Source of the DNA: Lutibacter maritimus
GTDB lineage: Bacteria; Bacteroidota; Bacteroidia; Flavobacteriales; Flavobacteriaceae
Assembly: GCF_900116115.1 (NCBI RefSeq)
Contig: NZ_FOZP01000004.1
Coordinates: forward strand, 69,501 to 133,500
DNA length: 64,000 bases
Direction of reading: 5' to 3'
Program-made: the position numbers and the translations under genes
The notes under the pieces: generated by a model
Told to the model about the DNA's origin: nothing
Database searches by the model: none
What the model saw: only the letters and a program-made list of their open reading frames with translations
Shown: positions 23,413-40,481 of the stretch, in pieces
How positions within the stretch are numbered: position 1 is the stretch's first letter
How the letters are laid out: each line of letters begins with the position of its first letter

Positions 23413-24126
23413 TCATTTTTTTCTTTCCTTAAAAAACCCTGGAAAATAATCCTTTAATAAATTACGATACTCCTCCTCTGTTACTTTTATCCCAGCATTT
23501 GGCTTTTCTATACGAACAGGTCTCTTTGAGTTTAGCTTTATTTTTGTAGCTCTATAACTTAGTAAAGAATGTTCTAATTCCAAAATTAAGCCTGGCAGGC
23601 CATTATATTCTTTTGGTCCAAAGCTTACTGGAATTTGTGGTGTAAACCAAGCTACTGTCTTATTATTTGAATTTAAAGTATCTTTTTTTATTGCTTTAAA
23701 ACAATTATAAGTCCCTATTTTTTTTGATTCTTGTTTAATTTCCCAAGTAATCGGTTTTTTATTAATTAAAAATTTACCAGCCGCATTACTTTTTTGTAAC
23801 AAATGTATATCATTTGAAACGTCATTATAAAACACATCTCCTTTTCCTGCAAAGGTTCGAGTCAAATTAATTCCTTGATCTGCATCATTCTCCATTGGAG
23901 TATCCAATTTGTAAAGAGATTCATTATTAGAAAAAAATAAGCTTGCAGTAATATCTTTGGAATTATTTATAGCTTTTATTGCCTGTTTATTATTTTCAGT
24001 TTCAACAATCTCTTTTTGGTTGGCTTTATTATAACTAATAGTATATGTTACTTTTCCTTCAATGTTGTTTTGAGCAAACAAAAAAGTAGTATATAAACAG
24101 GTTATTATTAAAATATAAATTTTCAT
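23413..24126 (-). CDS. GLPGLI family secreted protein (paralogue 1)
   Basis: 237 aa with signal peptide (MKIYILIITCLYTTFLFAQ). Shared family landmarks: GKVTYTISY near the N-terminus, IGTYNCFKA with a lone conserved Cys, AWFTPQIPVSFGPKEYNGLPGLILELE (split here as AWFTPQIP and GLPGLILELE), and a C-terminal VTEEEYRNLL. Function of GLPGLI proteins is not established; they are typically beside outer-membrane barrels, as here. Lies between the small secreted protein gene and the barrel gene, apparently one operon. Confidence 0.93.
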   Translation of the reverse strand: MKIYILIITCLYTTFLFAQNNIEGKVTYTISYNKANQKEIVETENNKQAIKAINNSKDITASLFFSNNESLYKLDTPMENDADQGINLTRTFAGKGDVFYNDVSNDIHLLQKSNAAGKFLINKKPITWEIKQESKKIGTYNCFKAIKKDTLNSNNKTVAWFTPQIPVSFGPKEYNGLPGLILELEHSLLSYRATKIKLNSKRPVRIEKPNAGIKVTEEEYRNLLKDYFPGFFKERKK

Positions 24127-24196
24127 TTTAAATAGAATTTGAACAACCGAGTATTAATATATTAATACTCGGTTGTAATTAAACAAATTTGTTATA

Positions 24197-24424
24197 CTAA
24201 TTTGCCATACAGTCAAGATAAAACTCCATATAAAGTTCAAGATAATAATCCTGATACTCCCCTCGAATATCTTCTTCATTAACCATTGCAACTGTTTCAA
24301 CGTTACCCATGGCTTGATCAACACAATCTCTAACTTTTACAACTTTGTCTTCTATACTTGAATTCGCATTCACCATTGCTAAACTTGCAAAAACAAATAC
24401 TATACTTAAAATTATTTTTTTCAT
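24197..24424 (-). CDS. Small secreted protein, hypothetical
   Basis: 75 aa: clear signal peptide (MKKIILSIVFVFASLAMVNA) and an acidic ~55-residue mature part with two Cys (in VRDCVDQAM and LDCMAN) about 38 residues apart and a Tyr-rich stretch (YQDYYLELYMEFY). I do not recognise a family. First gene of the operon to the GLPGLI/barrel pair, preceded by copy 1 of the ~395-bp repeated element. A diverged, start-less relative lies at 27240-27548 in the equivalent place ahead of the second GLPGLI set. Confidence 0.7.
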   Translation of the reverse strand: MKKIILSIVFVFASLAMVNANSSIEDKVVKVRDCVDQAMGNVETVAMVNEEDIRGEYQDYYLELYMEFYLDCMAN

Positions 24425-24450
24425 TTTATTAAAATTTAAATTTGTTACTA

Positions 24451-24846
24451 GCGCATAATTGCGCTTTAATATTTTGTTAGTTCTGCGAGGTGTATTACTT
24501 TTGCAACACTTTTGGCTGTTTGTATATAGTAGCTATGTCATAATAGTTAGTGGTTTTAAGTTAAACATTTTATTAGCGTATTGTGTTCTTAAAATTTTTA
24601 CCAGCAGAGGATTTTTATTTTTTCTCCGCTTATTAACAATATATAATTACCTTCTTTAAGTTTTATTTAAAACTTAAAGGCAACAAAAAAACTCTTAATA
24701 TGAGTTTACTCCTTATTCTTAAAAATATGTGGTAAATAGCAATTTACAGCAGTATTCTTTTTCATATAACAATTTTATATTAGGTTTTAAATCTTTCTTC
24801 AGGTTAAATGTATAAAAAAAAAAAAAAGACTTGGCAAAATATTTTT
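24451..24846. repeat. ~395-bp duplicated non-coding element, copy 1
   Basis: Nearly identical to 27550-27943, from the hairpin GCGCATAATTGCGC to GACTTGGCAAA. Contents: GCGCA/TGCGC hairpin at the left edge, a plus-strand TTG-N19-TACTTTTG promoter, a 9-bp stem around AGCAGAGGA (24604-24632), a perfect 11-bp stem CTTTAAGTTTT/AAAACTTAAAG (24654-24679), and an oligo-A tract. The 486-bp gap 24425-24910 holds this and nothing else recognisable. Lying upstream of both GLPGLI operons, it may be a shared leader/promoter segment or encode an RNA. The 66-codon plus-strand frame inside is broken in copy 2. Confidence 0.88.
24474..24503 (+). promoter_or_regulatory. Plus-strand promoter inside repeat copy 1
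   Basis: TTG (24474-24476), 19 nt, then TACTTTTG (24496-24503), a full match to the Bacteroidota -33/-7 pattern, with start expected near 24507. It points away from the operon it precedes and is conserved in copy 2, suggesting an RNA transcribed rightward through the element. Confidence 0.5.
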
Positions 24847-24910
24847 ACTAATTAGCTACATTTAAAATGGTTATAAATAAGAATAATATTTATCTTATTT
24901 TTAAAAAAAG

Positions 24911-25657
24911 CTAATTTCTTCTACTTTTATCAATTTCTTTATATTTATTTAATAATTGCTCATGAGTTATAATTTTACCTTTTTCAGGCTTTTTAATTTT
25001 AGGCTCATTTTTAGGATTTAATTTTATTGAACTTGCATAATATGTTATACCGCCTTCTGTTAATTCTAAAATAAGACCTGGTAAACCTGCATAATATTTT
25101 GGACCAAAACCATTTGCAATTTGAGGAGTATACCAAGCTTCAATTGCTATCTTTTTTTTAGGGTTTACTTTTATAGCTGTTGCTTTAAAGCAAATATAAG
25201 CTCCTATTTGTTTGGATTCGTTTGATAATTTCCAACCAATTTCATTTAAATTTCTTTTTATAATCATTCCCTTATCATAAGAACCTAATTCCTCTAATGA
25301 AATACTATCTTTAATACTTGTATAAAAAAAACTATCGCTTGCTGTAAAAATTTTAGCATAATCTATACTAATCATATTATTTTCTGAACCTAAAATTTCT
25401 TTCCAAAAATAATTGGAACTGTCTTTATTAAAAATCAAATTAAACTGAAAGGAGTCTTGATATTCCTTTATGCTTTCATTTATAGTATAAAGTGCCTCTG
25501 CCGCTCCTGGCTTACCAAATTGTTTCAATGAATCTATATTAAACATATCTGAAGCTCTATATTTATAAACTACTTCACCCGTAAATTTTTGTGCATAATT
25601 TGTGTTGTAAATTGAAAATATGAGTACGAGTAAAAAAATGTTTTTTATTGAATTCAT
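24911..25657 (-). CDS. GLPGLI family secreted protein (paralogue 2)
   Basis: 248 aa, signal peptide ending at ...NTNYAQ. Landmarks: GEVVYKYRASD, IGAYICFKA, AWYTPQIANGFGPKYY followed by AGLPGLILEL, and HEQLLNKYKEI at the end. This copy has an extra segment about residues 35-60 (LKQFGKPGAAEALYTI). Last gene of a three-GLPGLI tandem; the next gene upstream ends 31 bp away. No barrel gene follows it: downstream is repeat copy 1. Function unknown. Confidence 0.92.
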   Translation of the reverse strand: MNSIKNIFLLVLIFSIYNTNYAQKFTGEVVYKYRASDMFNIDSLKQFGKPGAAEALYTINESIKEYQDSFQFNLIFNKDSSNYFWKEILGSENNMISIDYAKIFTASDSFFYTSIKDSISLEELGSYDKGMIIKRNLNEIGWKLSNESKQIGAYICFKATAIKVNPKKKIAIEAWYTPQIANGFGPKYYAGLPGLILELTEGGITYYASSIKLNPKNEPKIKKPEKGKIITHEQLLNKYKEIDKSRRN

Positions 25658-25688
25658 GTGGATGAGTATTAATTTCGTTTTATGCTCT

Positions 25689-26423
25689 TTAAAAAATCAT
25701 ACGCCCTTTTTTTTTGCTTATTTCATTGTATTCATCCTTTGTAACTTCTTTACCTTTTGCTGGTTTCACTATTTTAGTGCCTTTTTTAGTATTTAACTCA
25801 ATTGTTGAGGCATAAAAACGAACGTTTTGATATTGTATTTCTATAATTAAACCCGGTAAACCGCCAAAACCTACAGGACCAAAACCAAATGGAATTTCAG
25901 GAACAAACCAAGCTTCAACAGGATGCTTAAATATACCTACATTATTTTCAACAACTTTTGTAGTGAGTGCCTTATAACATTTATAGTTGCCTATTAATTT
26001 ACTCTCATTTGTAATTTGCCATTTTATGGAGTCTAAATTAGAAACTATATTAAAAATTTCTCCTGACAGCTCAACACTTCTTATAGCCTCTTTTGTTTTT
26101 AAATTCATATAAAAATCGCCACTTGCACCTCCCGCACCTACAATAAATTTTAGTGATTTTTCATCTGTTTCAATCGCTAAATTTTCTTCTAAGGAAAATA
26201 ATGATTCATTATTATTAATAATCAGATTGTACCGTAAACTATTGCTACTTTCTTTTAAACCATCTTGTATGGTATTCATTATTTTTTGCTTCTCTGGATT
26301 GCTATTATTTATTGGGTAGTAGTTTATTATATCTTTTTTATACATAACAAAAACTTTCCCATTCTGAGAAAAACTTAGTACTGTAAATAATAATAGTGTT
26401 GATAAAAGAATTATTTTTTTCAT
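25689..26423 (-). CDS. GLPGLI family secreted protein (paralogue 3)
   Basis: 244 aa, signal peptide MKKIILLSTLLLFTVLSFSQ. Landmarks: IGNYKCYKA, AWFVPEIPFGFGPVGF then GGLPGLIIEIQ, and TKDEYNEISKKKG. The start of the mature protein (KVFVMYKKDIINYYP) is less like the other paralogues, so it is the most diverged in its N-terminal strand. Middle gene of the tandem, 16 bp after paralogue 4. Confidence 0.92.
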   Translation of the reverse strand: MKKIILLSTLLLFTVLSFSQNGKVFVMYKKDIINYYPINNSNPEKQKIMNTIQDGLKESSNSLRYNLIINNNESLFSLEENLAIETDEKSLKFIVGAGGASGDFYMNLKTKEAIRSVELSGEIFNIVSNLDSIKWQITNESKLIGNYKCYKALTTKVVENNVGIFKHPVEAWFVPEIPFGFGPVGFGGLPGLIIEIQYQNVRFYASTIELNTKKGTKIVKPAKGKEVTKDEYNEISKKKGRMIF

Positions 26424-26439
26424 TTTATTGAAATTTATT

Positions 26440-27147
26440 TTAATTATTCTGGTGCTTTTTCATAAAATCCTGTGTCAATTTTTTTACAATATTTTCATAT
26501 TCTTCTGACGATACCTTCTTTCCTTCTATTGGTTTATTTATAACCAAGGAATCTAGGTTTAATTCAATTTTTAAAGCTGAAAAAGTTAGGTTTCCTTCTT
26601 GTAATTCTAAAATTAAACCTGGTAAATTGTCATATTCTTTAGGTCCAAAATTAACTGGTATTTCAGTTGTATACCAAGCAACAACTTCTCTTTCCTTAGT
26701 AATTCCTTTTCTGTTTTTAAAATACTTTACTGCTGTTGCTTTTAAACAAGAATATTTTCCAATTATCTTTTCTTCTTGAGTTAATTCCCACTTTATTAAG
26801 GGATAATCAACCAAAAATAATTCTCCATAATACTCTTTTTGATTTATTCTTTCATTTGCTTTTACATTTGAATAAAAAATTCCATTTCCAGCAAAAATTG
26901 TAACTAAACCTAATTTCTTATCATTTTCATTTACTAAAACGTCTTGTTTTTTAAAAATAGATTCATTGCTAGAAAAACTTAATATGTATAGTAATTTATC
27001 TGAATCCATTGACAAAGATTTACTATTATCCATATTAAATTCTGCTGAGTAAACAATTTGTCCATTTATATTTTGACTATAAGTACTCTGTGAAATAAAT
27101 GTTATTAAAACTATACTTATCAATAATAAAGTTTTTAAATATCTCAT
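26440..27147 (-). CDS. GLPGLI family secreted protein (paralogue 4)
   Basis: 235 aa, signal peptide ending near STYSQ. Landmarks: GQIVYSAEFN, IGKYSCLKA, AWYTTEIPVNFGPKEY then DNLPGLILELQ; the first Gly of the signature is Asn here. C-terminal SSEEYENIVKKL. By its FGPKEYDNLPGLILELQ block it looks closest to paralogue 1 of the barrel operon, supporting operon duplication. First complete gene of the tandem. Confidence 0.92.
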   Translation of the reverse strand: MRYLKTLLLISIVLITFISQSTYSQNINGQIVYSAEFNMDNSKSLSMDSDKLLYILSFSSNESIFKKQDVLVNENDKKLGLVTIFAGNGIFYSNVKANERINQKEYYGELFLVDYPLIKWELTQEEKIIGKYSCLKATAVKYFKNRKGITKEREVVAWYTTEIPVNFGPKEYDNLPGLILELQEGNLTFSALKIELNLDSLVINKPIEGKKVSSEEYENIVKKLTQDFMKKHQNN

Positions 27148-28892: not shown

Positions 28893-29020
28893 TTTTCGTC
28901 AGTTCGAGTGATTTTCGATAGAAAATTGTATCGAGGACTAGAAAATTTATCTTAAAAAATGGTTCTCGATACATTTTTTGTTCCTTTGCAATACACAAAA
29001 AACACTCGAACTGACGTTTT
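28893..29020. repeat. Nested palindromic repeat (MITE/REP-like)
   Basis: Outer arms CGTCAGTTCGAGTG (28897-28910) and CACTCGAACTGACG (29003-29016) are perfect 14-bp inverted repeats; inner arms TGTATCGAG (28928-28936) and CTCGATACA (28965-28973) pair too, so the whole ~125 bp can fold into one cruciform. I recall near-identical elements dispersed in many Flavobacteriaceae genomes. No coding capacity. Confidence 0.85.
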
Positions 29021-29223
29021 TAAAAATTACACCTAACGTGTTAAAGATACTAAAAATATATTGATATGTAATAAGTAAGACCTATTAATTATGAACAAAA
29101 AATCATCATTTATTTAGAACCAAGCTATCTAAAAAGCCTTGAAATTAGTCCTGCTATTTTAAAGTTTTTCAATCAGTTTCATTTACAAATAAGAATAGCT
29201 ACATTTACACCAAACTATTTTTT

Positions 29224-29604
29224 ATGTCACAATTTACATTACTTTTTGCCAGTATTTTAGGAGGTTTAGCCGTTATTTTTGGTGCTTTTGGTGCACATGC
29301 ATTAAAAAAAATACTAAATGAAGATCAATTAAAAAGTTTTGAAACTGGTGTAAAATACCAACTATATCACGCTATTGTTTTATTGGTTATTGGCTTTAAT
29401 TTAAGTTTAGATACTACATTAGAAAAATATATGGTATATAGCTTTATGATTGGAATTATACTTTTTTCATTCAGTATTTATGGTTTGGTTATTTCATCTG
29501 CAAATAATAAAAAATTAAAGTTTTTAGGCCCAATTACGCCTTTAGGTGGTTTATTATTAGTATGCGGCTGGATTTTGTTATGTTTTTCAATTTTGAATTT
29601 ATAA
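29224..29604 (+). CDS. DUF423 family membrane protein
   Basis: 126-aa inner-membrane protein with four predicted helices: LLFASILGGLAVIFGAFGAHALKKIL (TM1, with the family signature GAFGAHALK), YHAIVLLVIGFNLSL, YSFMIGIILFSFSIYGLVIS and LGPITPLGGLLLVCGWILL (with the conserved PxGG). YgdD/DUF423 proteins have no settled function. A degenerate copy of the 5' third lies 1.3 kb upstream at 27944-28083. Confidence 0.9.
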   Translation: MSQFTLLFASILGGLAVIFGAFGAHALKKILNEDQLKSFETGVKYQLYHAIVLLVIGFNLSLDTTLEKYMVYSFMIGIILFSFSIYGLVISSANNKKLKFLGPITPLGGLLLVCGWILLCFSILNL

Positions 29605-29607
29605 CAT

Positions 29608-29787
29608 AAAGAGGCTGTATTGAAAGTAGAATTTTAGTCAACTTATGCATCTATTTCACTCAGCAACAGATTATTGAGCGAAGTAGATACACAGGTTCTC
29701 ATTGTGATCGATGATCAATATGATAAGATGCTGAATCAAGTTCAGCATGACGTGTTTCTAGACTTTTTAAACAGCCTCTTTTTTTAA
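29608..29787. repeat. Palindromic intergenic repeat, copy B (terminator)
   Basis: Outer arms AAAGAGGCTGT and ACAGCCTCTTT form a perfect 11-bp stem followed by a T-run; the interior shares ~65 bp (from CAGGTTCTCAT to CAGCATGACGTG) with copy A at 20611. Copy B carries additional sequence with GCATCTATTTCACTC near its left end. It fills the convergent gap between the DUF423 and porin genes. Confidence 0.8.
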
Positions 29788-29816
29788 AACAACTAACTAA
29801 AGCTTTTGTCTATAAA

Positions 29817-31067
29817 TTATTTTGAAGAAAATAATTTAGGATTAAATGTAAACATAATCCAGCTCCAAGAACTGTTTTCATCTTTACCACCACCTTTTAA
29901 TACTTCCATAGAATTTGTTCCGTACATTTTAGAATAACCTGCGCTAAATGCAATATTATTAGCTACTTTATATCCAATTGTTAGATCAATTTCAGTTCCT
30001 AATTTACTGTCCATTTTAGTAGTTCCGCTATAAATATCAGCAGCAGATGAAAAGAAATGAGGCATAACCTTTGCTGAAAACTTATCTTTATTATACCCAA
30101 CAAAACCATTTACATCTACTAAACCAACTGATCCACCGTGGTTTCCAACATAAAAATAATCCATCCAACCATTAAATTTATGGTTGGTACCATATAACGG
30201 ATTGAAGGATTTTACGTCTAAACTTGTGTCATTTGTGTCTTTCCCACTTAAATATTCAGCACCTACACCAAAAGAAAATAAATCGGAAGCTTTATAACTT
30301 ATGTTTCCAGAAAAATTAGAAGCACTTACATCTTTATCAGAAATTTTTCCAGTTTGAACATATATAGAGAAATCTGAAGCAAATTTTCCTTCTTTATACG
30401 TAATATACGTACCTATTGTTTGTGAGTAATCTACTTTTTGATCTCCAGCATTTAAATATTCAACACCATTATTTAAAGCCAATAAACTTAAACCAACTTT
30501 ATCAATTGCTGTGTGATAATATGCATATTGAAATGTTTTGTAACCTGCAATATTGCTGTATAAATTATCTACACCTGCTTGGCTATCAGCATTTAAAGCA
30601 AAACCTATATCTAAATTACTCTTTTCTGAAAGTTTAAATTTAGCAATCATAGCATCATGGCTTCTAGCTTGTTGTGCCCAACCTACGTTTCCAAAAATTC
30701 TACTGTCATCATATACAATTTCTTGACGCCCTAATTTTAATGAAAAACTGTCAGATAATAATGCTTCTGCCCAAGCTTCGTGTAACATTGTAGCATTGTC
30801 ATCAGCGCCTAAAGTACTAATATCTCCCCAAACTCTAACGTTTTGTAAAGACATTCCAATTTTAATTTTATCTTGACTAAAATTAAAGTTTAAACGTGAT
30901 CGCTGTGAAATAAAGTTGGCACCATCTGCATTTGTTGCTAGCAATGAACCGTAACCATGTTTATTTTCAAAACGCGGTCTTAATTCGGCAGATAAATCAA
31001 ATTGTTGCGCATAATTAGTTGTTACAATTAATGTAACTAAAAGTGTAAAATAAAAATACTTTCTCAT
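29817..31067 (-). CDS. Outer-membrane porin, alginate-export-like
   Basis: 416 aa with signal peptide (MRKYFYFTLLVTLIVTTNYAQ) and repeated amphipathic strands: SAELRPRFENKHGYG, RSRLNFNF, FSLKLGRQEIVYDDSRIFGN, the block WAQQARSHDAMI. These resemble the alginate export (AlgE-type) barrel family found widely in Bacteroidota as general or nitrate-linked porins. It is the last gene behind the nor cluster but has its own promoter, whose layout copies that of norC, so I infer expression under the same low-oxygen/NO conditions. Substrate unknown. Confidence 0.82.
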   Translation of the reverse strand: MRKYFYFTLLVTLIVTTNYAQQFDLSAELRPRFENKHGYGSLLATNADGANFISQRSRLNFNFSQDKIKIGMSLQNVRVWGDISTLGADDNATMLHEAWAEALLSDSFSLKLGRQEIVYDDSRIFGNVGWAQQARSHDAMIAKFKLSEKSNLDIGFALNADSQAGVDNLYSNIAGYKTFQYAYYHTAIDKVGLSLLALNNGVEYLNAGDQKVDYSQTIGTYITYKEGKFASDFSIYVQTGKISDKDVSASNFSGNISYKASDLFSFGVGAEYLSGKDTNDTSLDVKSFNPLYGTNHKFNGWMDYFYVGNHGGSVGLVDVNGFVGYNKDKFSAKVMPHFFSSAADIYSGTTKMDSKLGTEIDLTIGYKVANNIAFSAGYSKMYGTNSMEVLKGGGKDENSSWSWIMFTFNPKLFSSK

Positions 31068-31099
31068 TGGTATTTGTTTTAATTATTTTTCAGTTAAAT

Positions 31100-31172
31100 A
31101 TATAAAGACCTCTTTGTCTTTATATGGCGAAAATACGCGCAATAAAAGAAGTAAATAATGATTTTTATCAAC
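31100..31172 (-). promoter_or_regulatory. Porin promoter with two palindromes
   Basis: Minus-strand order: AATGA-N6-TCAAC type palindrome (31157-31172, centre about -40), -7 box TATTTTCG (31128-31135), start near 31124, then a perfect inverted repeat with 10-bp arms ATATAAAGAC/GTCTTTATAT (31100-31125). The same three parts at the same spacing occur ahead of norC (38275-38352). Confidence 0.55.
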
Positions 31173-31176
31173 TTTG

Positions 31177-31425
31177 CTATTTTAAAATAAATAGTAGCGT
31201 TCCCATTACTATAATTAAATAAAATATTATTGAAAATTTCCAAAAAGAATGTGCTTTTTTCATTTCCATAAAATAATTTGCAACTAAAATAAATTTAATG
31301 GCAGCAAGCACCAATATAAAAGTTACAGCAACTGTTGTTACAAGTGTTGAATTTGATACCAATGCTGTACAAATTGTAAGCATAATTAATACTAGCCAAA
31401 CTATTAAAAGAAGGTTTTTTCTCAT
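31177..31425 (-). CDS. Small membrane protein, cytochrome oxidase subunit IV/NorF-like
   Basis: 82 aa with three hydrophobic helices (LLLIVWLVLIMLTICTALV, LVTTVAVTFILVLAAIKFILVANYFMEMKKAH, FWKFSIIFYLIIVMGTLLFI). The AAIKFILVANYFMEMKKAH block is typical of prokaryotic subunit IV-like (COX4_pro) proteins and of NorF, which accompanies NorE in nor clusters. Begins 1 bp after the norE-like gene. Assists NO reductase activity by inference only. Confidence 0.75.
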   Translation of the reverse strand: MRKNLLLIVWLVLIMLTICTALVSNSTLVTTVAVTFILVLAAIKFILVANYFMEMKKAHSFWKFSIIFYLIIVMGTLLFILK

Positions 31426-31426
31426 T

Positions 31427-32005
31427 TTAAAAAAGTAAATAGATTACGGGAAATAATAATAACCAAATTAAATCGCACATATGCCAAAACGCAGCACTTG
31501 CTTCAAAATCTTCTAAGTTTAGGGTAGATTTTCTTTTAAAACCAACATAATTAAATAGTAAAATAACCAATCCAACCACCACATGAATTACATGAAACAA
31601 GGTTAACATCCAATAAAATGAAAAAAATGTATTGTAACCAATTGTTAAACCTGCTTGTAGTTTAAAATAATATTCAACGCTTTTTAATAGTAAAAACAAC
31701 ACGCCACCAACCATTGTTAATTTTAGAAAAAAAGTAGCTTTTTCAATCTTATTTTCTTTAAAATTTTCTACCGATTTTGCCATAAAAAACCCACTGGTTA
31801 ATAAAAAAATGGTATTGATTGCACCAAAAGTAGTATTCAATAATAATTTAGATTGATGAAAAATTTCAGGTTCATCTTTACTATACAAAACCATTGCAAC
31901 TAAAGCTGCGCCAAAAGTGAATAATTCTAAAAAGATGATAATCCATAGTAAAATTCCTCCTGGCGGATACGCAATATTTTTGCTGTTAATTGTTGAAGTA
32001 TCCAT
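31427..32005 (-). CDS. norE: Cytochrome oxidase subunit III-like protein, NorE type
   Basis: 192 aa, five hydrophobic segments, subunit-III fold: GGILLWIIIFLELFTFGAALVAM, NTIFLLTSGFFMAKSVE and ending SAAFWHMCDLIWLLLFPVIYL with the conserved WHxxDxxW. In denitrifiers norE sits in the nor operon and raises NO reductase activity; here it follows the hemerythrin-PAS gene by 3 bp. A stand-alone subunit III without subunits I/II of an oxidase supports the NorE reading. Confidence 0.8.
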   Translation of the reverse strand: MDTSTINSKNIAYPPGGILLWIIIFLELFTFGAALVAMVLYSKDEPEIFHQSKLLLNTTFGAINTIFLLTSGFFMAKSVENFKENKIEKATFFLKLTMVGGVLFLLLKSVEYYFKLQAGLTIGYNTFFSFYWMLTLFHVIHVVVGLVILLFNYVGFKRKSTLNLEDFEASAAFWHMCDLIWLLLFPVIYLLF

Positions 32006-32008
32006 AAA

Positions 32009-32986
32009 TTAATCCCAATCTAACAAACGTTTTTCGCCTTCTAATTTTTGAATATCTGTTACGTCCTGTGACATTTCAATAACACCTCTGTATTTCTTAT
32101 CATTATCTCTAATAGCGAAATATCTGATATGAATAATTCTTCCTCTAAAGTTGAACCAAAACTCTGCAACATCTTTTGTTCCAGCTTTAAATTCGGCTAC
32201 AATTCGCAATACCATATCTACACTTTTTGGTGGATGACAAAAACGAACTTCACGTCCAATAATTCCTTTACTTCTTGGAAAAACTCTATCATCTCCTCTA
32301 TTGTAAAAAATTACTTTATCATTTTCATCCACAAACGTAATGTCAACTGGCAAAAAACGAAGTAATAAATTTACTTGTTCAGGAGTCATATAACCTTCGT
32401 CGTAATGAAACGTGTTTTCCAACGAAAAAGATAAATCGCGTTGTGTAAAATCTTCACTTGGGTGCACATATGTTTCTTGCTCAATTGCAGGATATGGTAA
32501 TGGTTTTTCTAATAACATCCAACCAATTTCCTCATCGCCTTGGTAAAATTCTTTCCATTCGTCTTCCGATAATAATTCCATTGAATTTGGAAATAATTTC
32601 ATATGTTCAATGGTTAATAAACGCTTAATTCCTTCCACTAAATACGGAATATTATCTACAATTTTCTGTGTATTTCTTTCTGAATTATAGGTATTTAATA
32701 AACGTATTTGATCACGTAAATTGTCATGAAATGACCACATTCCTTGACTTGGACCTTCCCAACCGTGCTTTTCTAAATATGGAAATAATTGATTTTCTTT
32801 GCGTGAAAATCGTTTTTCAATAGTTGTTAATTGATTGAAAATATTAAAATATTTTTGAAAATCAGCTACTGGATTAACATCATATAATTCAGCTAATAAA
32901 TTCTGAATTAATTCGCTTTCTTGGTAATATACTTTTACTGGATGCCCCGTTGGCAGTTTTTCTACAGTAGTTAAAAATGAATTCAT
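32009..32986 (-). CDS. Hemerythrin-like and PAS domain protein
   Basis: 325 aa. Residues ~15-150 are an all-helical HHE/DUF438-type region with FSRKENQLFPYLEKHGWEGP, WSFHDNLRDQI and LTIEHMKLFPNSMELL, giving His/Glu positions for a di-iron site. Residues ~205-320 form a PAS domain (RFLPVDITFVDENDKVIFYN, IGREVRFCHPPKSVD, YFAIRDNDKKYRGVIEMSQDVTDI). No kinase or DNA-binding output follows. Position between ric and norE in the nor unit suggests NO/O2 or iron sensing or NO scavenging; this is inference. Next gene upstream ends 15 bp away. Confidence 0.82.
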   Translation of the reverse strand: MNSFLTTVEKLPTGHPVKVYYQESELIQNLLAELYDVNPVADFQKYFNIFNQLTTIEKRFSRKENQLFPYLEKHGWEGPSQGMWSFHDNLRDQIRLLNTYNSERNTQKIVDNIPYLVEGIKRLLTIEHMKLFPNSMELLSEDEWKEFYQGDEEIGWMLLEKPLPYPAIEQETYVHPSEDFTQRDLSFSLENTFHYDEGYMTPEQVNLLLRFLPVDITFVDENDKVIFYNRGDDRVFPRSKGIIGREVRFCHPPKSVDMVLRIVAEFKAGTKDVAEFWFNFRGRIIHIRYFAIRDNDKKYRGVIEMSQDVTDIQKLEGEKRLLDWD

Positions 32987-33001
32987 TTTTTTAATTTTTT
33001 A

Positions 33002-33715
33002 TTAGGCTATTAATTTCAACACTTTTGGAAAAAAAACGTGTTTATTAAAATGTACATATTTTTGAAGTTGATGATCTAATTCGTGTAATTTTTCATATAA
33101 AAAACGGAACGAATTACAACCATCTGCAGGAACAGTATAATGTGTAGATAAATTTGAAATTTCTTTAAAAGTATCACTCACTAATTGTTGTGCAATTTCA
33201 GTTTTATTGATGGCTTTTTTAATTCCATCTATTTGATCTGTTGAAATTTCATCGAATTTATTGTTTAACTCTAAAACACTTTCAATAGTTGGAAACAAAG
33301 TAGTTTCTGTATTTTTTAGCATTTCAACCAACACCACCTCAACAGCTTGTAATAACGTATTAATTTCAACAACTTCTTTTGCATGACCTCCATGAACCTG
33401 CGCTACTTTAGCTGCAATTGGCATAATTTGCGGTAAATTTTCTTCAATGTAATTGTGGTATTCTTCACTAATTTGATCAATTAGTGAACTAATATCTAAA
33501 TCGTTTAAATCATGTTCTCCCGATATTTTTGAATTTAAAGCTTCAATTTCTTGCTTTAAAACGTTAAACTCAATTCCAATTTCTTTACAAGCGTTTTCTA
33601 AAGTAACGCCACCTCCACAACAAAAATCGATTTTGTATTTGCTAAAAACGTGATCAGATCCTAATTTTTTTGAAACAATTTCTGCAACTGTATTCTCTTT
33701 TGTAATATTCATCAT
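33002..33715 (-). CDS. ric: Iron-sulfur cluster repair di-iron protein (RIC/ScdA/YtfE)
   Basis: 237 aa. N-terminal ScdA domain with the CC motif (YKIDFCCGGGVTLENAC, about residues 26-43) and a C-terminal hemerythrin domain with repeated His: EEYHNYIEENLP, AQVHGGHAKEV, LSTHYTV, KLHELDHQLQKYVHFNKHVFFP. Repairs Fe-S clusters damaged by NO or oxidants. Located 8 bp after norD, consistent with an NO-defence operon. The start is MMNITKENTV; the second Met is equally possible. Confidence 0.93.
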   Translation of the reverse strand: MMNITKENTVAEIVSKKLGSDHVFSKYKIDFCCGGGVTLENACKEIGIEFNVLKQEIEALNSKISGEHDLNDLDISSLIDQISEEYHNYIEENLPQIMPIAAKVAQVHGGHAKEVVEINTLLQAVEVVLVEMLKNTETTLFPTIESVLELNNKFDEISTDQIDGIKKAINKTEIAQQLVSDTFKEISNLSTHYTVPADGCNSFRFLYEKLHELDHQLQKYVHFNKHVFFPKVLKLIA

Positions 33716-33723
33716 TTTAAATT

Positions 33724-35493
33724 TTATGATTGATGTTTTATTTTTTCATATAGTTGAACCATAGACCTTAACAATTCAACTGGTGTTGTTAATATTTGAT
33801 AATGATTTTGTCCAAACATTTGCGGTAAATAATATTTTGCTTGTGCTTCAATAGCTAAAGCATACGAATTTATATTGCGTTCATTTAATTCTCTTAACGC
33901 TTGTTTTACATCATTTACGCCGTACTTACCTTCGTATTTATCGTAATCATTTGGTTTGCCGTCTGACAGTAAAATCACCCATTTATTTTTAGTACTTCGC
34001 TTATCTAACATCGCACCAGAATGACGCAAAGCAGCACCAATTCTGGTATAACCACTTGGCGCTACAGCGCCAACTTTAAATTTGGCTTTATTCCAATCTT
34101 CATCAAAATCTTTTATGGTGATGTATGAAGAATGATTTCTAGTTTTAGAGTAAAAACAATCGATAGAAAAATCGATATTAAATTCATTTAAAATTTCTCC
34201 AAACAAAATAGAAACTTGCTTTTCTACATCAATTACGCGATTTCCTGCGGCATAACCATCACTTGATAAACTGATATCTAACAGCAATAAAATGGATAAA
34301 TCTTTCTCCTTTTTACGTTTTGAAATGTAAATATTTTCTGAAGGTGTGTGGTTAGAATGTACATCTACAAACAAATCTGTAATAGCATCAATATCAAATT
34401 CATCACCTTGTGTTTGTCTGCGTTGTTGTTGCAATTTATTGTTTACCGTTGTCAACATTTTACGCAAACCCATTAAGGTACTATTGTTTTCCTTTATCGT
34501 TTTTTTGTAATAATTCACATCATTTTTTAGCAAAGTTTTTGGGTATACTTTGCAAAAATCTGGTTTATAAGTACGTTTTGTATAATCCCATTCATCATAT
34601 TTAATATGATAGCCATTGGCATCAATTTCAGCACTTTCAGAAACGGTTGTATTTTCAATAAAATCTGCCTGATATACAGAATGCGCGGTATCATCAACAC
34701 GTACGGTATATTTCATATTAACATCTTCCAACGCATTTGAATGATCATCCAATTCATCTTCCCCATCAAAATCTCTAAAATTACCACCAAATTCTTCTGC
34801 TGTTTCAACTTTTTCAAACTGATGTTGTAAAACAGCATCTTCTTGTTGCTTTACATCAACTTGCACAGAAATAATTTCTTCAACAGCTTTTGATTTTAAA
34901 ATGGTTTTCGGTTGTTCTTCATTGGCTTTTTTTACTTTATCTGTAAAATTATTTAATGTGTTTTCTGAAGCTTCTTCAGGGTTGTTTCGCATCCATTTTC
35001 CGTAGATAAATGAATAATCTGCCACTTCTTCTTCTTTTACTTTGTTTGTATAGAACTTTTTAAAGTTCGCATAGTATTTTTTAGTTATGGGAAATTGCTC
35101 AAATAACGATACTAATATTTGTTGAGATGTTTCTTGTGCTTTTTGTTGTGATTCTATTAACTCATGTTCTTGATGATCGTTCCAATTTAAATTTAAATTC
35201 TTTTGAATTGATAAGTATAAAACTCGAAATAAATAGAACGCAATATTTTCATCAATCGACTGAAAATCAGAAAATTTTGTAGGTAAAAAGAAATTATTGT
35301 TTTTATAACCACCTTCTCTTTCAGCCTCGTAAATTTCGATAGAATTACCAGTAATTGCGCGCGCCAATATGGTTAATCTAGGTTTTATATCTTCTAAATT
35401 AACAGTGTACAAATTCGCATTCTCTTTCTCTTTTTTCTTTCTTTTAAAATAAAAAGCTAATTTGGTAAATATGTATTCATCTGGTTCGAACAT
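33724..35493 (-). CDS. norD: NorD-type VWA domain protein
   Basis: 589 aa. The C-terminal third is a von Willebrand A domain: LLLLDISLSSDG is the DxSxS metal site and VILLSDGKPND the later Asp loop; the middle is acidic and poorly conserved. NorD pairs with the MoxR-type ATPase NorQ to insert iron and activate NorBC. It is 18 bp behind norQ in the expected order. Length is close to that of known NorD proteins (~600-640). Confidence 0.92.
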   Translation of the reverse strand: MFEPDEYIFTKLAFYFKRKKKEKENANLYTVNLEDIKPRLTILARAITGNSIEIYEAEREGGYKNNNFFLPTKFSDFQSIDENIAFYLFRVLYLSIQKNLNLNWNDHQEHELIESQQKAQETSQQILVSLFEQFPITKKYYANFKKFYTNKVKEEEVADYSFIYGKWMRNNPEEASENTLNNFTDKVKKANEEQPKTILKSKAVEEIISVQVDVKQQEDAVLQHQFEKVETAEEFGGNFRDFDGEDELDDHSNALEDVNMKYTVRVDDTAHSVYQADFIENTTVSESAEIDANGYHIKYDEWDYTKRTYKPDFCKVYPKTLLKNDVNYYKKTIKENNSTLMGLRKMLTTVNNKLQQQRRQTQGDEFDIDAITDLFVDVHSNHTPSENIYISKRKKEKDLSILLLLDISLSSDGYAAGNRVIDVEKQVSILFGEILNEFNIDFSIDCFYSKTRNHSSYITIKDFDEDWNKAKFKVGAVAPSGYTRIGAALRHSGAMLDKRSTKNKWVILLSDGKPNDYDKYEGKYGVNDVKQALRELNERNINSYALAIEAQAKYYLPQMFGQNHYQILTTPVELLRSMVQLYEKIKHQS

Positions 35494-35511
35494 TCTTTAT
35501 TTTTTGGCAAA

Positions 35512-36291
35512 TTATATCATCAAATTACATAAATCTTTCAGTGCTTCAATCACTTCTAAATCATCTGTTAAAGGTTCTACAATAGCAACTTCTACCGATA
35601 ATCTTTTTGGTAAACCACTATGAATTAATTTTGCTGCATCCACCAACAAACGTGTTGAAACAGTTTCTGCTAAACCTAGTTCCGTTAGATTTCTAATTTT
35701 TGTAGCAATATTTACTAGCTTTTTAGCAATACCAGCTTCAATACCAGCTTCATTCACCAAAATTTCAATCTCAATTTTTTCTTCAGGATATGCAAAAGAA
35801 CTTGCAATAAAACGCTGGCGAGTAGATGGTTTTAATTCTTTAAATCCTTTTTGATAACCTGGATTAAAAGATGCAACTAACATAAAATCTTCATGTGCTT
35901 TTACTATAATTCCTAACTTATCAATAAACAATTCTCGCCTATGATCTGTGAGTGAATGAATAGCAACAATAACATCTGGCCTAGCTTCAGCAATTTCATC
36001 TAAATAAATAATGGCGCCTTGTTTAATTGCTGTTGTTAAAGGTCCATCCGACCAAATTGTTTCTGCTCCTTTTATAATATACCTTCCAACTAAATCTGTT
36101 GATGAAGTTTCTTCGTGACAACTTATTGTAATTAGCTTTTTATCTAATTTTGAAGCCATAAATTCTACAAACCGAGATTTTCCAGTTCCTGTTGGTCCTT
36201 TTAATAAAAATGGAATCTTATTTTTATAAGCGTGTTCAAACACTTCAACTTCTTTTCCTATTTGATGATAATATGGTAATTGCGTGTTCAT
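35512..36291 (-). CDS. norQ: NorQ/CbbQ-type AAA+ ATPase
   Basis: 259 aa MoxR-family ATPase: Walker A LLKGPTGTGKSRFVEF, Walker B AIIYLDEIAEARPDV, sensor LVASFNPGYQ, arginine finger region STRQRFIASSF, and the CbbQ/NirQ C-terminal domain ending VEPLTDDLEVIEALKDL. Acts with NorD to mature the NO reductase. Start taken at ATG 36291 (MNTQLPYYHQIG); the open frame to 36348 begins in the norB-norQ gap. That 133-bp gap has CCAGAG/CTCTGG inverted arms ~50 nt apart, perhaps an mRNA-processing structure. Confidence 0.94.
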   Translation of the reverse strand: MNTQLPYYHQIGKEVEVFEHAYKNKIPFLLKGPTGTGKSRFVEFMASKLDKKLITISCHEETSSTDLVGRYIIKGAETIWSDGPLTTAIKQGAIIYLDEIAEARPDVIVAIHSLTDHRRELFIDKLGIIVKAHEDFMLVASFNPGYQKGFKELKPSTRQRFIASSFAYPEEKIEIEILVNEAGIEAGIAKKLVNIATKIRNLTELGLAETVSTRLLVDAAKLIHSGLPKRLSVEVAIVEPLTDDLEVIEALKDLCNLMI

Positions 36292-36424
36292 TTTCTTCTT
36301 TTTTTGATTTATTAGAGTTGAAAACCAGAGCCTTTGACTATTGTGCAAACAAGTATGGGTATTTGCTAATTATCTTAAACTCTGGCATCAATCTAAAAAA
36401 CTACAATTTAAATTTTTCAGCTAA

Positions 36425-37762
36425 TTATTCATTAATCTGTAATGCCTCATCAGTTGGCTTACCGTGCTTATAAAAATCAATAATATATAATACAATTCCG
36501 GTTGTAAACATCGTTGCACACAACACTAAAACAACAAAATGGATACTAATTTCTTTTTGAACTTTCATAAAATCCATTCCAAACTTACGTTCTAAATAAA
36601 CTTGTGCAACACCAGCAACTCCAAAAGCAACTGTCATTCCAATCATACCAATATTTGCTAGCCAAAATGCTGCTCTACCTCTAGTACTTTCATATAATTT
36701 TCTACCAGTCATATTTGGTAAACTATAACTTATAATTGCTAAAACAATCATTGCGTATGCTCCCCAAAAAGCTAAATGTCCGTGCATTGCTGTTACTAAA
36801 GTTCCGTGTGTATATAAATTTGTTTGAGGTAATGTATGTGCAAATCCTAATAAACCAGCTCCTACAAAAGATACAATTGCAGAACCTAATGTCCAGTATA
36901 ATGCTAATTTGTTTGGATGTTTTTTCTCACCTTTTCTATACATATTTACTGCAAATAATGCCATTGCTAAGAAAGCTAAAGGCTCTAATGCTGAAAATAT
37001 TCCACCAACAACTAACCAAATTTTATTTACACCTATGTAATAATAGTGGTGACCTGTTCCTAAAACTCCAGATAAGAAAGTTAAACCAACAATTACGTAT
37101 AACCATTTTTCAATAACTTCTCTATCAACACCTGTTAATTTTATTAATAAAAATGATAAAATACCACCCATAATTAATTCCCAAACACCTTCAACCCATA
37201 AATGAACAACCCACCAACGGAAAAATGAATCGGTAACTTGGCTATCAAAAGGTAACATTCCTGGTAAGTACAATAATGCTGCAAATAATAATCCCATAGA
37301 AAGCACTAACGCAGTAGTAGTTTGGCGTTTTCCTTTAAATAATGTGGTTAAAATTAAACCGAGGAATAATAATACGTTTACAACTACTAAATAATCTAAC
37401 GGACGAGGAATTTCTAAAAATTTACGTCCTTCCCAATAATTAAAATGATAACCAACAATTGCTATAACTCCAACAATTGCTAAGCTAATTAATTGGACAT
37501 ATGCTAATTTTACACTTACCAATTCTTTTTGAGCTTCTTCTGGAATAATATAATAAGCTGCTCCCATAAAACCAGATAATAGCCAAACAACTAATAAATT
37601 TGTATGTACGGCTCTTGCAGTGTTAAAAGGAATAAAATCGTGTAAGTTATCAAATCCTATTCGGGCAAAACCCATAATAAAACCGTATGTAATTTGTAAT
37701 ATTAATAAGAGCATTGAAAGGGCAAAAAACCAATATGCTACTTTTTGTGATTTATATTTCAT
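36425..37762 (-). CDS. norB: Nitric oxide reductase subunit B
   Basis: Membrane catalytic subunit reducing 2 NO to N2O. 445 aa, about 12 helices. Metal ligands visible: low-spin heme His in FNTARAVHTNLLVVW, FeB ligands His and Glu in WVVHLWVEGVWE, the His pair in GTGHHYYYIG, and His residues in TAMHGHLAFWGAYAM. Size and the adjacent separate norC identify the cytochrome-c-dependent (cNOR) type rather than the long quinol type. Starts 10 bp after norC. Confidence 0.96.
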   Translation of the reverse strand: MKYKSQKVAYWFFALSMLLLILQITYGFIMGFARIGFDNLHDFIPFNTARAVHTNLLVVWLLSGFMGAAYYIIPEEAQKELVSVKLAYVQLISLAIVGVIAIVGYHFNYWEGRKFLEIPRPLDYLVVVNVLLFLGLILTTLFKGKRQTTTALVLSMGLLFAALLYLPGMLPFDSQVTDSFFRWWVVHLWVEGVWELIMGGILSFLLIKLTGVDREVIEKWLYVIVGLTFLSGVLGTGHHYYYIGVNKIWLVVGGIFSALEPLAFLAMALFAVNMYRKGEKKHPNKLALYWTLGSAIVSFVGAGLLGFAHTLPQTNLYTHGTLVTAMHGHLAFWGAYAMIVLAIISYSLPNMTGRKLYESTRGRAAFWLANIGMIGMTVAFGVAGVAQVYLERKFGMDFMKVQKEISIHFVVLVLCATMFTTGIVLYIIDFYKHGKPTDEALQINE

Positions 37763-37772
37763 AATGTGATTT

Positions 37773-38234
37773 TTAGTTGTTAATTTTATCTTTTGCTAAA
37801 GGCGAAACAATTCTGTCAAAACCATTTAAATCAATCTCTCCAATCCATTTAAAAAATGCTATTACATCAGTAGCTTCTTGTTCTGTCATTCCGTACGCCA
37901 CCATTTTTCTACCGTTTGGTTGCCAAGGTCCTTTAGACATTAGAATACTTTTAATTACTTCCTCTCCATTTCCATCATAACGTTGGTTTAATCTGTCCAC
38001 TACTTTTGTAAGCTCAGGTGCATAATAGCCTCCTTCGCCTAAAATAGTATGACATCCCATACAGTTATTTGATTCCCAAATTTCTTTACCTCTAACCACT
38101 TCTGCAGTAAGATTTTCATGATTTGTTTGATCCGTTGCTTCCGATAATGAATACACTGTAAGTCCTATAAAAATTAGGAAAGTTACCAATGTACCGCCAA
38201 GAAAGAACGCCCTTGCTTGTTTTTTAGATAACAT
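37773..38234 (-). CDS. norC: Nitric oxide reductase subunit C (cytochrome c)
   Basis: 153 aa: one N-terminal membrane anchor (AFFLGGTLVTFLIFIGLTVYSL) then a periplasmic cytochrome c domain with heme motif NNCMGCHTILGEGGYYAPEL and a later Met ligand candidate (GRKMVAYGMT). Passes electrons to NorB. First gene of the nor unit, preceded by a well-formed promoter with two palindromes. Cytochrome c maturation for it could be supplied by ccsBA 2.4 kb away. Confidence 0.95.
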   Translation of the reverse strand: MLSKKQARAFFLGGTLVTFLIFIGLTVYSLSEATDQTNHENLTAEVVRGKEIWESNNCMGCHTILGEGGYYAPELTKVVDRLNQRYDGNGEEVIKSILMSKGPWQPNGRKMVAYGMTEQEATDVIAFFKWIGEIDLNGFDRIVSPLAKDKINN

Positions 38235-38274
38235 GTTTAAAAGAGTTTAATTTAGTTAAATTGATTATTAATAT

Positions 38275-38352
38275 ATATTAAGACCTTTTTATCTTTTATA
38301 TGGTACAAAAGTAAATAAAATATTTATTTGAATTATGATAATTGTCATAATT
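38275..38352 (-). promoter_or_regulatory. norC promoter with CRP/FNR-type site and downstream palindrome
   Basis: Minus-strand order: near-perfect 22-bp palindrome at 38331-38352 (core TTATGATAATTGTCATAA; half-sites TATGA-N6-TCATA), centred about 40 bp before the start; -7 box TACTTTTG (38306-38313); start near 38302; then an imperfect inverted repeat (38275-38303) with AAGACC...ATCTTT matching the porin leader. No good -33 TTG, as expected for an activator-dependent promoter. Confidence 0.6.
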
Positions 38353-38358
38353 TTAATT

Positions 38359-38817
38359 TTATTTAAATTCAGGTGTAATATCTTTTAGGGTTAATTTTCT
38401 TCCTTGCGAAGTAATCTCTTTAGAAAATTCCATAATAGTTAAATCTCTAAACTTTCCTAAAATACCATTTTTAAATGGCTCAACAATAAAATGAACTGGA
38501 CAAGGATTTGCGCCATCACATTCAGAAAGCCCTAAAAAACATTCGTTTAACCTAGTTAATCCATCAATATTTTCAATTATATCTAATACAGTTCTTTTTC
38601 CGTTCTTTTTAGTTAAATAGAAACCACCATTAGGACCTTTTGTTGAAGAAATAATTTTGCCTCGTACTAATTGTTGAAACAATTTTGCCAAAAATGGATT
38701 AGGTACATCAATACTTTCGGCAATGACTTTTACACTTATTTTATGGGTTTCACTTGAATGTTCTGCTAAAAACAATGTTGATAAAATAGCATACTTACTT
38801 GCACGAGATAACATCAT
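38359..38817 (-). CDS. Rrf2 family Fe-S regulator, NsrR-like
   Basis: 152 aa. N-terminal winged helix (MLSRASKYAILSTLFLAEHS, IAESIDVPNPFLAKLFQQLV, ISSTKGPNGGFYL) and three Cys in LNECFLGLSECDGANPCPVH (C-x6-C-x5-C), the Fe-S ligands of the IscR/NsrR group. Directly upstream of norC on the same strand, so NO-responsive repression of nor is the natural inference; IscR- or RsrR-like roles cannot be excluded. The palindrome at +1 of norC and porin is a candidate operator. Confidence 0.88.
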   Translation of the reverse strand: MMLSRASKYAILSTLFLAEHSSETHKISVKVIAESIDVPNPFLAKLFQQLVRGKIISSTKGPNGGFYLTKKNGKRTVLDIIENIDGLTRLNECFLGLSECDGANPCPVHFIVEPFKNGILGKFRDLTIMEFSKEITSQGRKLTLKDITPEFK

Positions 38818-38877
38818 AATAAATAATATTTTTGATTTCTTTTTTTGGTAAAATTAATAAAAAAAGAGTAACAAGTA

Positions 38878-40254: not shown

Positions 40255-40481
40255 AATAATAATTTTAATATTTATAAAAGAAGTAAGGTGATGTGTGGTT
40301 TAATAACCAAAAACGAGGTAAATAATTATTTCATAAAACACTCAGGGCGCTTTATATTTAAATAACTGTTAAAATATAGTTTGAAAAAACTTAATGTATT
40401 CATAAAACTTATTTCTGATAACAAATTTACAAAATTTAAATTTTAATGTCTCAATTTCACTATAAAATTTGAATTTTAATT

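Follow-up and report, generated by a model that had tools for sequence, protein, structure and literature searches.

The promoters of the porin gene and of norC in the nitric oxide reductase (nor) cluster of Lutibacter maritimus share a two-part switch. Judging from their sequences, we consider it likely (probability about 0.75) that both are class II FNR-type promoters with an added operator for an Rrf2-family protein, released by NO. What was observed directly is the sites themselves, how they are spaced and conserved, and their association with genes for three-cysteine Rrf2 proteins. The window analyzed is a stretch of 64,000 nucleotides of contig NZ_FOZP01000004.1. The cluster is read from its minus strand in the order rrf2, norC, norB, norQ, norD, ric, hemerythrin/PAS, norE, norF-like and porin:

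38359..38817, minus strand: Rrf2-family regulator, 152 amino acids, proposed repressor, with C93, C100 and C106
37773..38234, minus strand: norC, cytochrome c subunit of NO reductase
36425..37762, minus strand: norB, catalytic subunit, COX1 family
35512..36348, minus strand: norQ, AAA protein with a CbbQ/NirQ/NorQ C-terminal domain
33724..35493, minus strand: norD-like VWA/CoxE protein
33002..33715, minus strand: ric/ScdA-type di-iron Fe-S repair protein (TIGR03652 171.9 bits, below the cut-off of 204.7)
32009..32986, minus strand: hemerythrin-PAS protein
31427..32005, minus strand: norE-like protein, COX3 family
31177..31425, minus strand: small membrane protein, 82 amino acids, called norF-like from its position only
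29817..31067, minus strand: outer-membrane porin-like protein (Pfam Alginate_exp), 416 amino acids, proposed member of the regulon

Promoter positions were derived from the box numbering of Flavobacterium johnsoniae, in which the -7 element runs from T-12 to G-5, as given in the accessible text of PMC6847099. Application of this numbering puts the center of the upstream dyad at -41.5 for the porin and at -40.5 for norC. The elements are:

31158..31171 (center 31164.5), minus strand: predicted FNR-like activator site of the porin, TTGATAAAAATCAT, center at -41.5; also present in porin orthologues
31128..31135, minus strand: -7 box of the porin, TATTTTCG; with its first T taken as -12, the start is predicted near 31123
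31100..31125, minus strand: predicted Rrf2 operator of the porin, ATATAAAGAC-AAAGAG-GTCTTTATAT, with perfect 10-bp arms
31105-31120, minus strand: core of the porin operator, AAGACAAAGAGGTCTT, at about +4 to +19
38333..38350 (center 38341.5), minus strand: predicted FNR-like activator site of norC, TTATGA-CAATTA-TCATAA, TTATGACAATTATCATAA, center at -40.5
38306..38313, minus strand: -7 box of norC, TACTTTTG; start predicted near 38301
38280..38295, minus strand: predicted Rrf2 operator of norC, AAGATAAAAAGGTCTT, core AAGAT-AAAAAG-GTCTT, at about +7 to +22

The porin begins 109 bases past the stop codon of the norF-like gene and the promoter elements lie in that gap, the FNR-like site beginning 5 bases beyond the stop codon. 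After rechecking of the coordinates, the center of TGA-N6-TCA was found 29.5 bp from the box at the porin and 28.5 bp from it at norC, exactly the distances of the original prediction, and a TAnnTTTG-type box was read on the minus strand at both promoters, as had been claimed. The first palindrome had been described as TATGA-N6-TCATA at both. This is correct for norC, but the porin has TTGAT-N4-ATCAT, an FNR-like form. Similarly, the AAGAC...GTCTT palindrome at the start is perfect over 10 bp at the porin but contains one mismatched pair at norC (AAGAT/GTCTT); the form found over the predicted start at both promoters is AAGAY-N6-RTCTT. The two were also said to share an ATATGG end; by eye, the CCATAT that precedes the second palindrome is not conserved in the majority of the other norC promoters of Lutibacter.

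In 61 named loci (1.01 Mb), picked by their Rrf2 gene, AAGAY-Nk-RTCTT occurred at 64 places with k = 6 and at 1-11 places with every other k from 0 to 15. The controls gave 6.6 places on average for first-order Markov copies, 4 for the everted form and 9 for a direct repeat. Bare counts in whole genomes gave another picture. In this genome (3.48 Mb), AAAGAC-N6-GTCTTT was found at 1 place vs 2 for the reversed control, AAGAY-N6-RTCTT at 9 places vs 75, and a 20-base form of the operator, allowing up to 3 mismatches, gave 6 matches vs 15 for the control. A 17-base form with one mismatch gave 65 matches in 38 genomes of the genus, and its control 66. Bare counts of the palindrome thus did not rise above the reversed control, but two of the nine strict places are the porin and norC promoters themselves. 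A third (C9:151632) also has the FNR-like site, with a box 29 bp from it. As to the remaining strict places, L302 and L303 lie inside open frames and L300 looks like a terminator stem; the others are L295, L296 and L301. Real sites are marked by place and spacing; raw counts do not exceed the control. The pattern matches reading AAAGATAAAAAGGTTTTC, from several genomes of the genus (L061, L068, L072 and L076), represented one conserved stretch after which no open frame starts, and were dropped as probably coding.

Both parts of the switch recur across Flavobacteriaceae. Among named loci, the nearest by Rrf2 is that of a Lutibacter MAG, and most of the close ones carry this genus name. Thirty Lutibacter-type Rrf2 loci were fetched, two of them without norC, giving a set of 28 norC promoters that includes the one of this genome. 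The strict operator AAGAY-N6-RTCTT was present in 24 of the 28 (this one included), with slight deviations in L012, L016, L024 and L036. Column conservation was computed on 26 of the 28 promoters (L024 and L027 were not anchored by the regular expression): the operator-anchored columns of TAAAAGATAAAAAGGTCTT were 73-100% pairwise identical, and those of flanks and spacer about 26-68%. TGA-N6-TCA was found in 25 of the 28 promoters (all except L021, L022 and L023), its center lying 28-30 bp from the box in all 24 with a recognizable box. With the box as anchor, the FNR-like site did not stand out in the column conservation, since it is 28 bp away in some promoters and 29 in others. A symmetric dimer site does not account for the asymmetry of the Lutibacter operator: the norC copies, including that at 38280-38295 in the window, have an A-rich center and mostly read GAT-AAAAAG-GTC, and in every genome they face transcription the same way.

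Among porin orthologues of at least 63% identity, 9 of 11 had the strict operator together with the FNR-like site. The remaining two (L086 and L087) have upstream sequence that looks coding by eye, and their porin is therefore probably part of the nor operon. The operator-filtered set of porin promoters comprised 7 loci plus L110; the unfiltered repeat comprised 30 porin loci, 29 of which were aligned (none from L104). Seventeen porin paralogues were under 50% identity, and 13 of them were analyzed as type-2 promoters (see below). No site was found at the porin paralogues L100, L102, L105 and L106, nor at L088 (59%).

Upstream regions of norC were also scored in 30 further, non-Lutibacter genomes, on a scale with a lowest training score of 8.8 and a median of 23.5. 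Nineteen contained an operator scoring 16 or more. In four others the variant is weaker: only one arm is left in L171 and L177, the site reads AGGATAAAATTATCCT in L176, and that of L186 is doubtful. The operator before norC was absent in the other seven (L169, L170, L175, L185, L188, L211 and L215). The stretch upstream of norC reads by eye as coding in L169, L175, L211 and L215, indicating that norC is probably not the first gene there, but not in L170, L185 and L188. The genome of L188 encodes an Rrf2 (60% identity) with its own operator, though there is none before norC. The sole genome of the 30 without a three-cysteine Rrf2, G053 (L170), has no norC operator, which fits, but with n = 1.

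The original prediction had pointed to the adjacent Rrf2 protein as a plausible second regulator. This protein scored 77.3 bits against PF02082 (cut-off 30), making it a member of the Rrf2 family. Its cysteines C93, C100 and C106 are invariant in 18 aligned Rrf2 sequences, and the three-cysteine motif was present in 129 of the 140 distinct Rrf2 proteins collected. The grouping of these proteins is by identity to the Rrf2 of the window, and some other Flavobacteriaceae MAGs are included in the 37 'Lutibacter-type' rows (about 70% identity or more). In the 250 bp upstream, the relaxed operator ARGAY-N6-RTCYT was found for 27 of 49 three-cysteine Rrf2 genes at 45-61% identity (0.14 expected) and for 19 of 43 under 45% identity (0.19 expected). 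Overall, 46 of the 92 such genes outside the Lutibacter-type group had the operator in their own promoter (0.3 expected) and 46 did not, many rows being related genomes, so that counts across loci are not independent events. None was found in the 250 bp upstream of the 11 Rrf2 genes without the three cysteines, nor upstream of the 37 Lutibacter-type genes. Of the Lutibacter-type genes, 35 are followed by a frame; in 34 of these it is norC, and the operator stands before norC.

In many relatives with an Rrf2 at 53-61% identity, the palindrome was located 40-96 bases ahead of the Rrf2 start. A motif-free count of exact 5-mer palindromes in the 92 Rrf2 upstream regions ranked AAAGA-N8-TCTTT first (17) and had ATGAT-N4-ATCAT (11) and TATGA-N6-TCATA (10) among its top ten, indicating that operator and FNR-like site belong together well beyond the genus. 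When the own-operator label was mapped on the tree, 25 changes were required, a number below that of every one of 500 shuffles (mean 39). Two Rrf2 genes were found in this genome; only that of the window carries the cysteine motif, the second having neither the cysteine spacing nor an operator upstream. With the operator tied to three-cysteine Rrf2 genes and found at 0 of 11 others, the adjacent Rrf2 protein is very likely, by this association, the reader of the second palindrome.

The spacing between FNR-like site and box agreed with the activation by a CRP/FNR-type protein that had been suggested. Near operators, 82 pairs were 28-30 bp apart, 66 of them at exactly 29 bp, 10 at 28 and 6 at 30, with a background of 0.41 per distance. 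A distance of 29 bp to the box corresponds to -41.5, which is the position of class II activators. Of 208 distinct operator sites, 107 had TGA-N6-TCA within about 115 bp and 74 had a box 28-30 bp from such a center; these sets, like the operator classes described below, leave out sites less than 130 bp from a locus end or with N, and keep one site per identical 76-bp stretch. FNR-like sites without an operator nearby also peaked at 29 bp (46 cases), with 1-11 cases at other distances except for 26 at 7 bp. The 29-bp spacing therefore appears to be a general activator geometry of these bacteria. The 26 cases at 7 bp, a second peak of TGA-N6-TCA without operator in loci L107-L207, come perhaps from one conserved gene.

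The operator was less strictly placed relative to the box, at 17-23 bp from it in 27 norC and 7 porin promoters. With respect to the FNR-like center, the operators fell into two classes. Class A operators were 49-63 bp away (66 pairs, peak at 53-54) and lie over the start, as at norC and the porin here. Class B operators were 18-21 bp away (29 pairs, 27 of them at 19-20), a spacing that would put the two footprints edge to edge and suggests occlusion of the activator. Six class B sites (L176, L203-L205, L239 and L272) had boxes 28-30 bp on both sides of the FNR-like site, so that one activator site may serve two divergent promoters. The 13 type-2 porin promoters of the genus (L089-L099, L101 and L103) consist of an operator-like site, 5-6 bases, an FNR-like site, 23 bases and a T-rich box, which ends in TTTG at the usual place and has the TA in only one case (L092); in three of these promoters the operator does not match even the relaxed pattern.

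Candidates for the activator are present in this genome, which has nine HTH_Crp_2 matches, eight of them over the cut-off, and four, by eye, with an E-x-x-x-R recognition helix. One candidate, L003, has N-terminal cysteines, and an FNR-like relative at 32% identity is encoded in the nor locus of G236, the only one with a CRP/FNR gene among loci L107-L207 and the window. Matches to the CRP/FNR queries in L166, L198 and L190 were rejected because of their likeness to receiver domains.

Beyond norC and the porin, sites were found before the cytochrome cd1 nitrite reductase gene nirS (L126; Cytochrom_D1), two copper nitrite reductase genes nirK (L173 and L175), ric (L138-L140, L149, L151, L152 and L180), nrdG (L181 tested, others by likeness), norQ, and cytochrome c lipoprotein genes divergent from rrf2 (L194 tested). 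L200 has a site between rrf2 and the divergent nadA. In this genome, the site at C9:151632-151647 (L297) lies between genes for a fasciclin-domain lipoprotein and a thioredoxin that face each other; a look-alike gene, judged by eye, has a site in G033 (L050). Among the genes that follow the more divergent three-cysteine Rrf2 genes are ric (9) and a truncated-globin cluster (4, of which one was tested). By their sequence assignments, the linked genes are the signature of an NO-stress regulator. Two further loci are recorded here: a 601-residue protein behind an operator (L152:16656-18461), which has no Pfam or NCBIfam match, and L064 (G029), in which AAAGACAAAAAGGTTTT stands 53 bp ahead of a gene reading, by eye, like ribonucleotide reductase.

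In the mechanism that we propose, a CRP/FNR-family protein would bind the TTGAT/TATGA-type dyads at -41.5 and replace the missing -33 element, so that transcription would require the low-oxygen (or NO) form of this activator. The neighboring Rrf2, probably a dimer with an Fe-S cluster held by the three cysteines, would bind ARGAY-N6-RTCYT. At norC, nirS and the type-1 porin, where the operator covers about +4 to +22, it would block RNA polymerase; at the divergent Rrf2/cytochrome c promoters and the type-2 porins, where it would sit 19-20 bp from the FNR-like center, it would occlude the activator. Damage to the cluster by NO would release Rrf2, and the nor operon, the porin, the nitrite reductases and the repair genes would be expressed only under low oxygen and in the presence of NO. 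Binding by Rrf2, repression rather than activation, the Fe-S cluster, the NO signal and FNR-type activation at -41.5 are what we infer from the arrangement of sites and genes.

We considered the possibility that the likeness is a chance product of two AT-rich promoters, given that the window offered only two sites and that raw genome-wide counts are not above control. The position and spacing of the sites in relatives, as seen in the spacer test, the Rrf2 promoters, the distance to the box, the two operator classes and the porin orthologues, refute this explanation, the probability of which is negligible; it is these, not bare counts, that bear out the original argument that the equal spacing exceeds chance. 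We also considered that the second palindrome might act in the message itself, as a 5'-terminal RNA hairpin controlling stability or translation, rather than as a protein operator. In favor of this, the palindrome starts at about +1, the folding energy is -9.6 kcal/mol (z -3.2) for the porin copy and -7.3 (z -3.75) for one other norC leader of Lutibacter, and 26-28 of the 28 norC copies retain the inner 5 pairs. Yet the window's norC copy folds no better than shuffles (z -0.64), three of the outer pairs are lost in 10, 9 and 13 of the 28 norC copies, respectively, and the inner sequence, being almost invariant, does not covary. Furthermore, the palindrome lies upstream of the box in L216 and L221 and upstream of the FNR-like site in type-2 porins, and is not transcribed from those promoters. 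These untranscribed copies, supporting the conclusion that the element is a DNA operator, together with the failure to maintain pairing, refute a 5'-UTR RNA element as a general explanation and make a hairpin very improbable; an Rfam search of window positions 29000-40400 returned 0 matches at E up to 1.

The operator could also be real but serve a different regulator, one inherited together with the three-cysteine Rrf2 genes. The assignment to Rrf2 comes from sequence evidence, Lutibacter-type Rrf2 genes have no site in their own promoter (0/37), and G172 has operator and Rrf2, yet no site before norC. However, three-cysteine Rrf2 genes have the site in front of them even at 32-45% identity and the 11 others do not, Rrf2 proteins are dimers that bind palindromes, and only one of the two Rrf2 genes found in this genome has the cysteine motif, so that we regard another reader as unlikely. 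Somewhat in the same range, though a little less probable still, is that Rrf2 is the reader but senses iron or Fe-S supply, as IscR or RirA do, or activates when bound beside FNR. The Fe-S enzymes NadA and NrdG are among the targets. The best NCBIfam equivalogs of the window's Rrf2 are SUF-regulator and IscR-like models, all below cut-off (IscR 50.5 bits, cut-off 207.55). Aspartate at residue 8 is the fourth ligand of NsrR according to the available text of PMC13404960; in the window's Rrf2 this residue is lysine. As to activation, E. coli O157 NsrR is described in PMC4432287, as far as its text was available, as activating some promoters. Against an iron or Fe-S signal, the linked genes mostly serve NO chemistry (nor, nirS, nirK, ric and globin), and release by NO is the reading that we retain.

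The closest known system is the NsrR regulon of proteobacteria and bacilli, described by Rodionov et al. (2005) in the accessible part of PMC1274295, with targets that include norB, nirK and dnrN/ric. At the enterobacterial hcp promoter, an FNR-like site is followed downstream by an NsrR site (PMC1274295). The Bacteroidota promoters analyzed here resemble this regulon in the Rrf2-family repressor, the overlapping targets and the hcp-type layout of FNR site plus repressor site, but differ in the operator, which is gATGyAT-N5-ATrCATc for NsrR (PMC1274295) and the 16-bp ARGAY-N6-RTCYT here. In 1.64 Mb of loci, the canonical NsrR motif was not matched exactly at any place (0). Among NsrR targets, hmp is the most conserved. 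The window's Rrf2 has three cysteines in its C-terminal part, and the genes linked to it or to related Rrf2s serve NO reduction and repair (norC, nirS, nirK, ric, and globin downstream of related Rrf2s), as expected of an NsrR. It scored only 25.6 bits against the NsrR model (NCBIfam PRK11014, cut-off 182), and all 18 aligned sequences have lysine as residue 8. Either of two Met codons may start the protein, which affects the numbering, but with neither is residue 8 an Asp. By its sequence, the window's Rrf2 would work like NsrR, but it is not filed as NsrR because of the different operator, the score below the model cut-off and the missing Asp8.

The NsrR of Streptomyces coelicolor, in the accessible text of PMC4432287, is similar in being a three-cysteine Rrf2 that acts on an inverted repeat in its own promoter (autoregulation). 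It differs in its site, two 11-bp repeats with 1 bp between them, and in its regulon, which comprises only hmpA1, hmpA2 and nsrR (PMC4432287). FNR and DNR promoters share with those described here the -41.5 position and the type of dyad, TTGAT-N4-ATCAA being the DNR consensus in PMC1274295. Unlike in FNR and DNR promoters, the dyad here is joined to the Bacteroidota -7 box TAnnTTTG, and one dyad can serve two divergent promoters with boxes 28-30 bp away (6 sites). Clade II nos clusters of coastal-sediment metagenomes also have Rrf2 genes, some Flavobacteriales-matched, beside denitrification genes (PMC6264515), but this likeness concerns the neighborhood only, 'binding site' not occurring in the accessible text of that paper. 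IscR, RirA and CymR share the Pfam Rrf2 domain with the window's protein, and IscR and RirA also have cysteines, but the scores of the window's protein are all under the curated cut-offs of their models.

We give about even odds to a broader view, in which a distinct Rrf2 subfamily of Bacteroidota, not NsrR proper, would control NO metabolism through its own 16-bp operator and act by position: by blocking polymerase over the start, by evicting the class II activator at 19-20 bp, and with one FNR and one Rrf2 dimer gating two divergent genes. A literature search, with subscription journals and regulon databases outside its scope, returned no paper on the operator of an NO-linked Rrf2 in Bacteroidota, the closest being PMC6264515 and PMC13404960 in their accessible text. 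If the proposal is true, the motif would predict NO-regulated genes across the Flavobacteriaceae that carry nor and nir genes, and an outer-membrane porin would join the NO response. The 29-bp rule from FNR-like center to box offers a generally usable guide to class II activation at promoters of the TAnnTTTG type, because it also holds at FNR-like sites without operator.

Two other features of the window were observed. Between the porin stop codon and the next gene, at 29610-29779, there is an inverted repeat, AGAGGCTGT ... AACAGCCTCT, with arms about 150 bp apart and a T run after the right arm, possibly a small mobile or terminator element. Positions 23413-27147 encode, consecutively on one strand, four similar secreted-looking proteins of 235-248 amino acids with a GLPGL motif.
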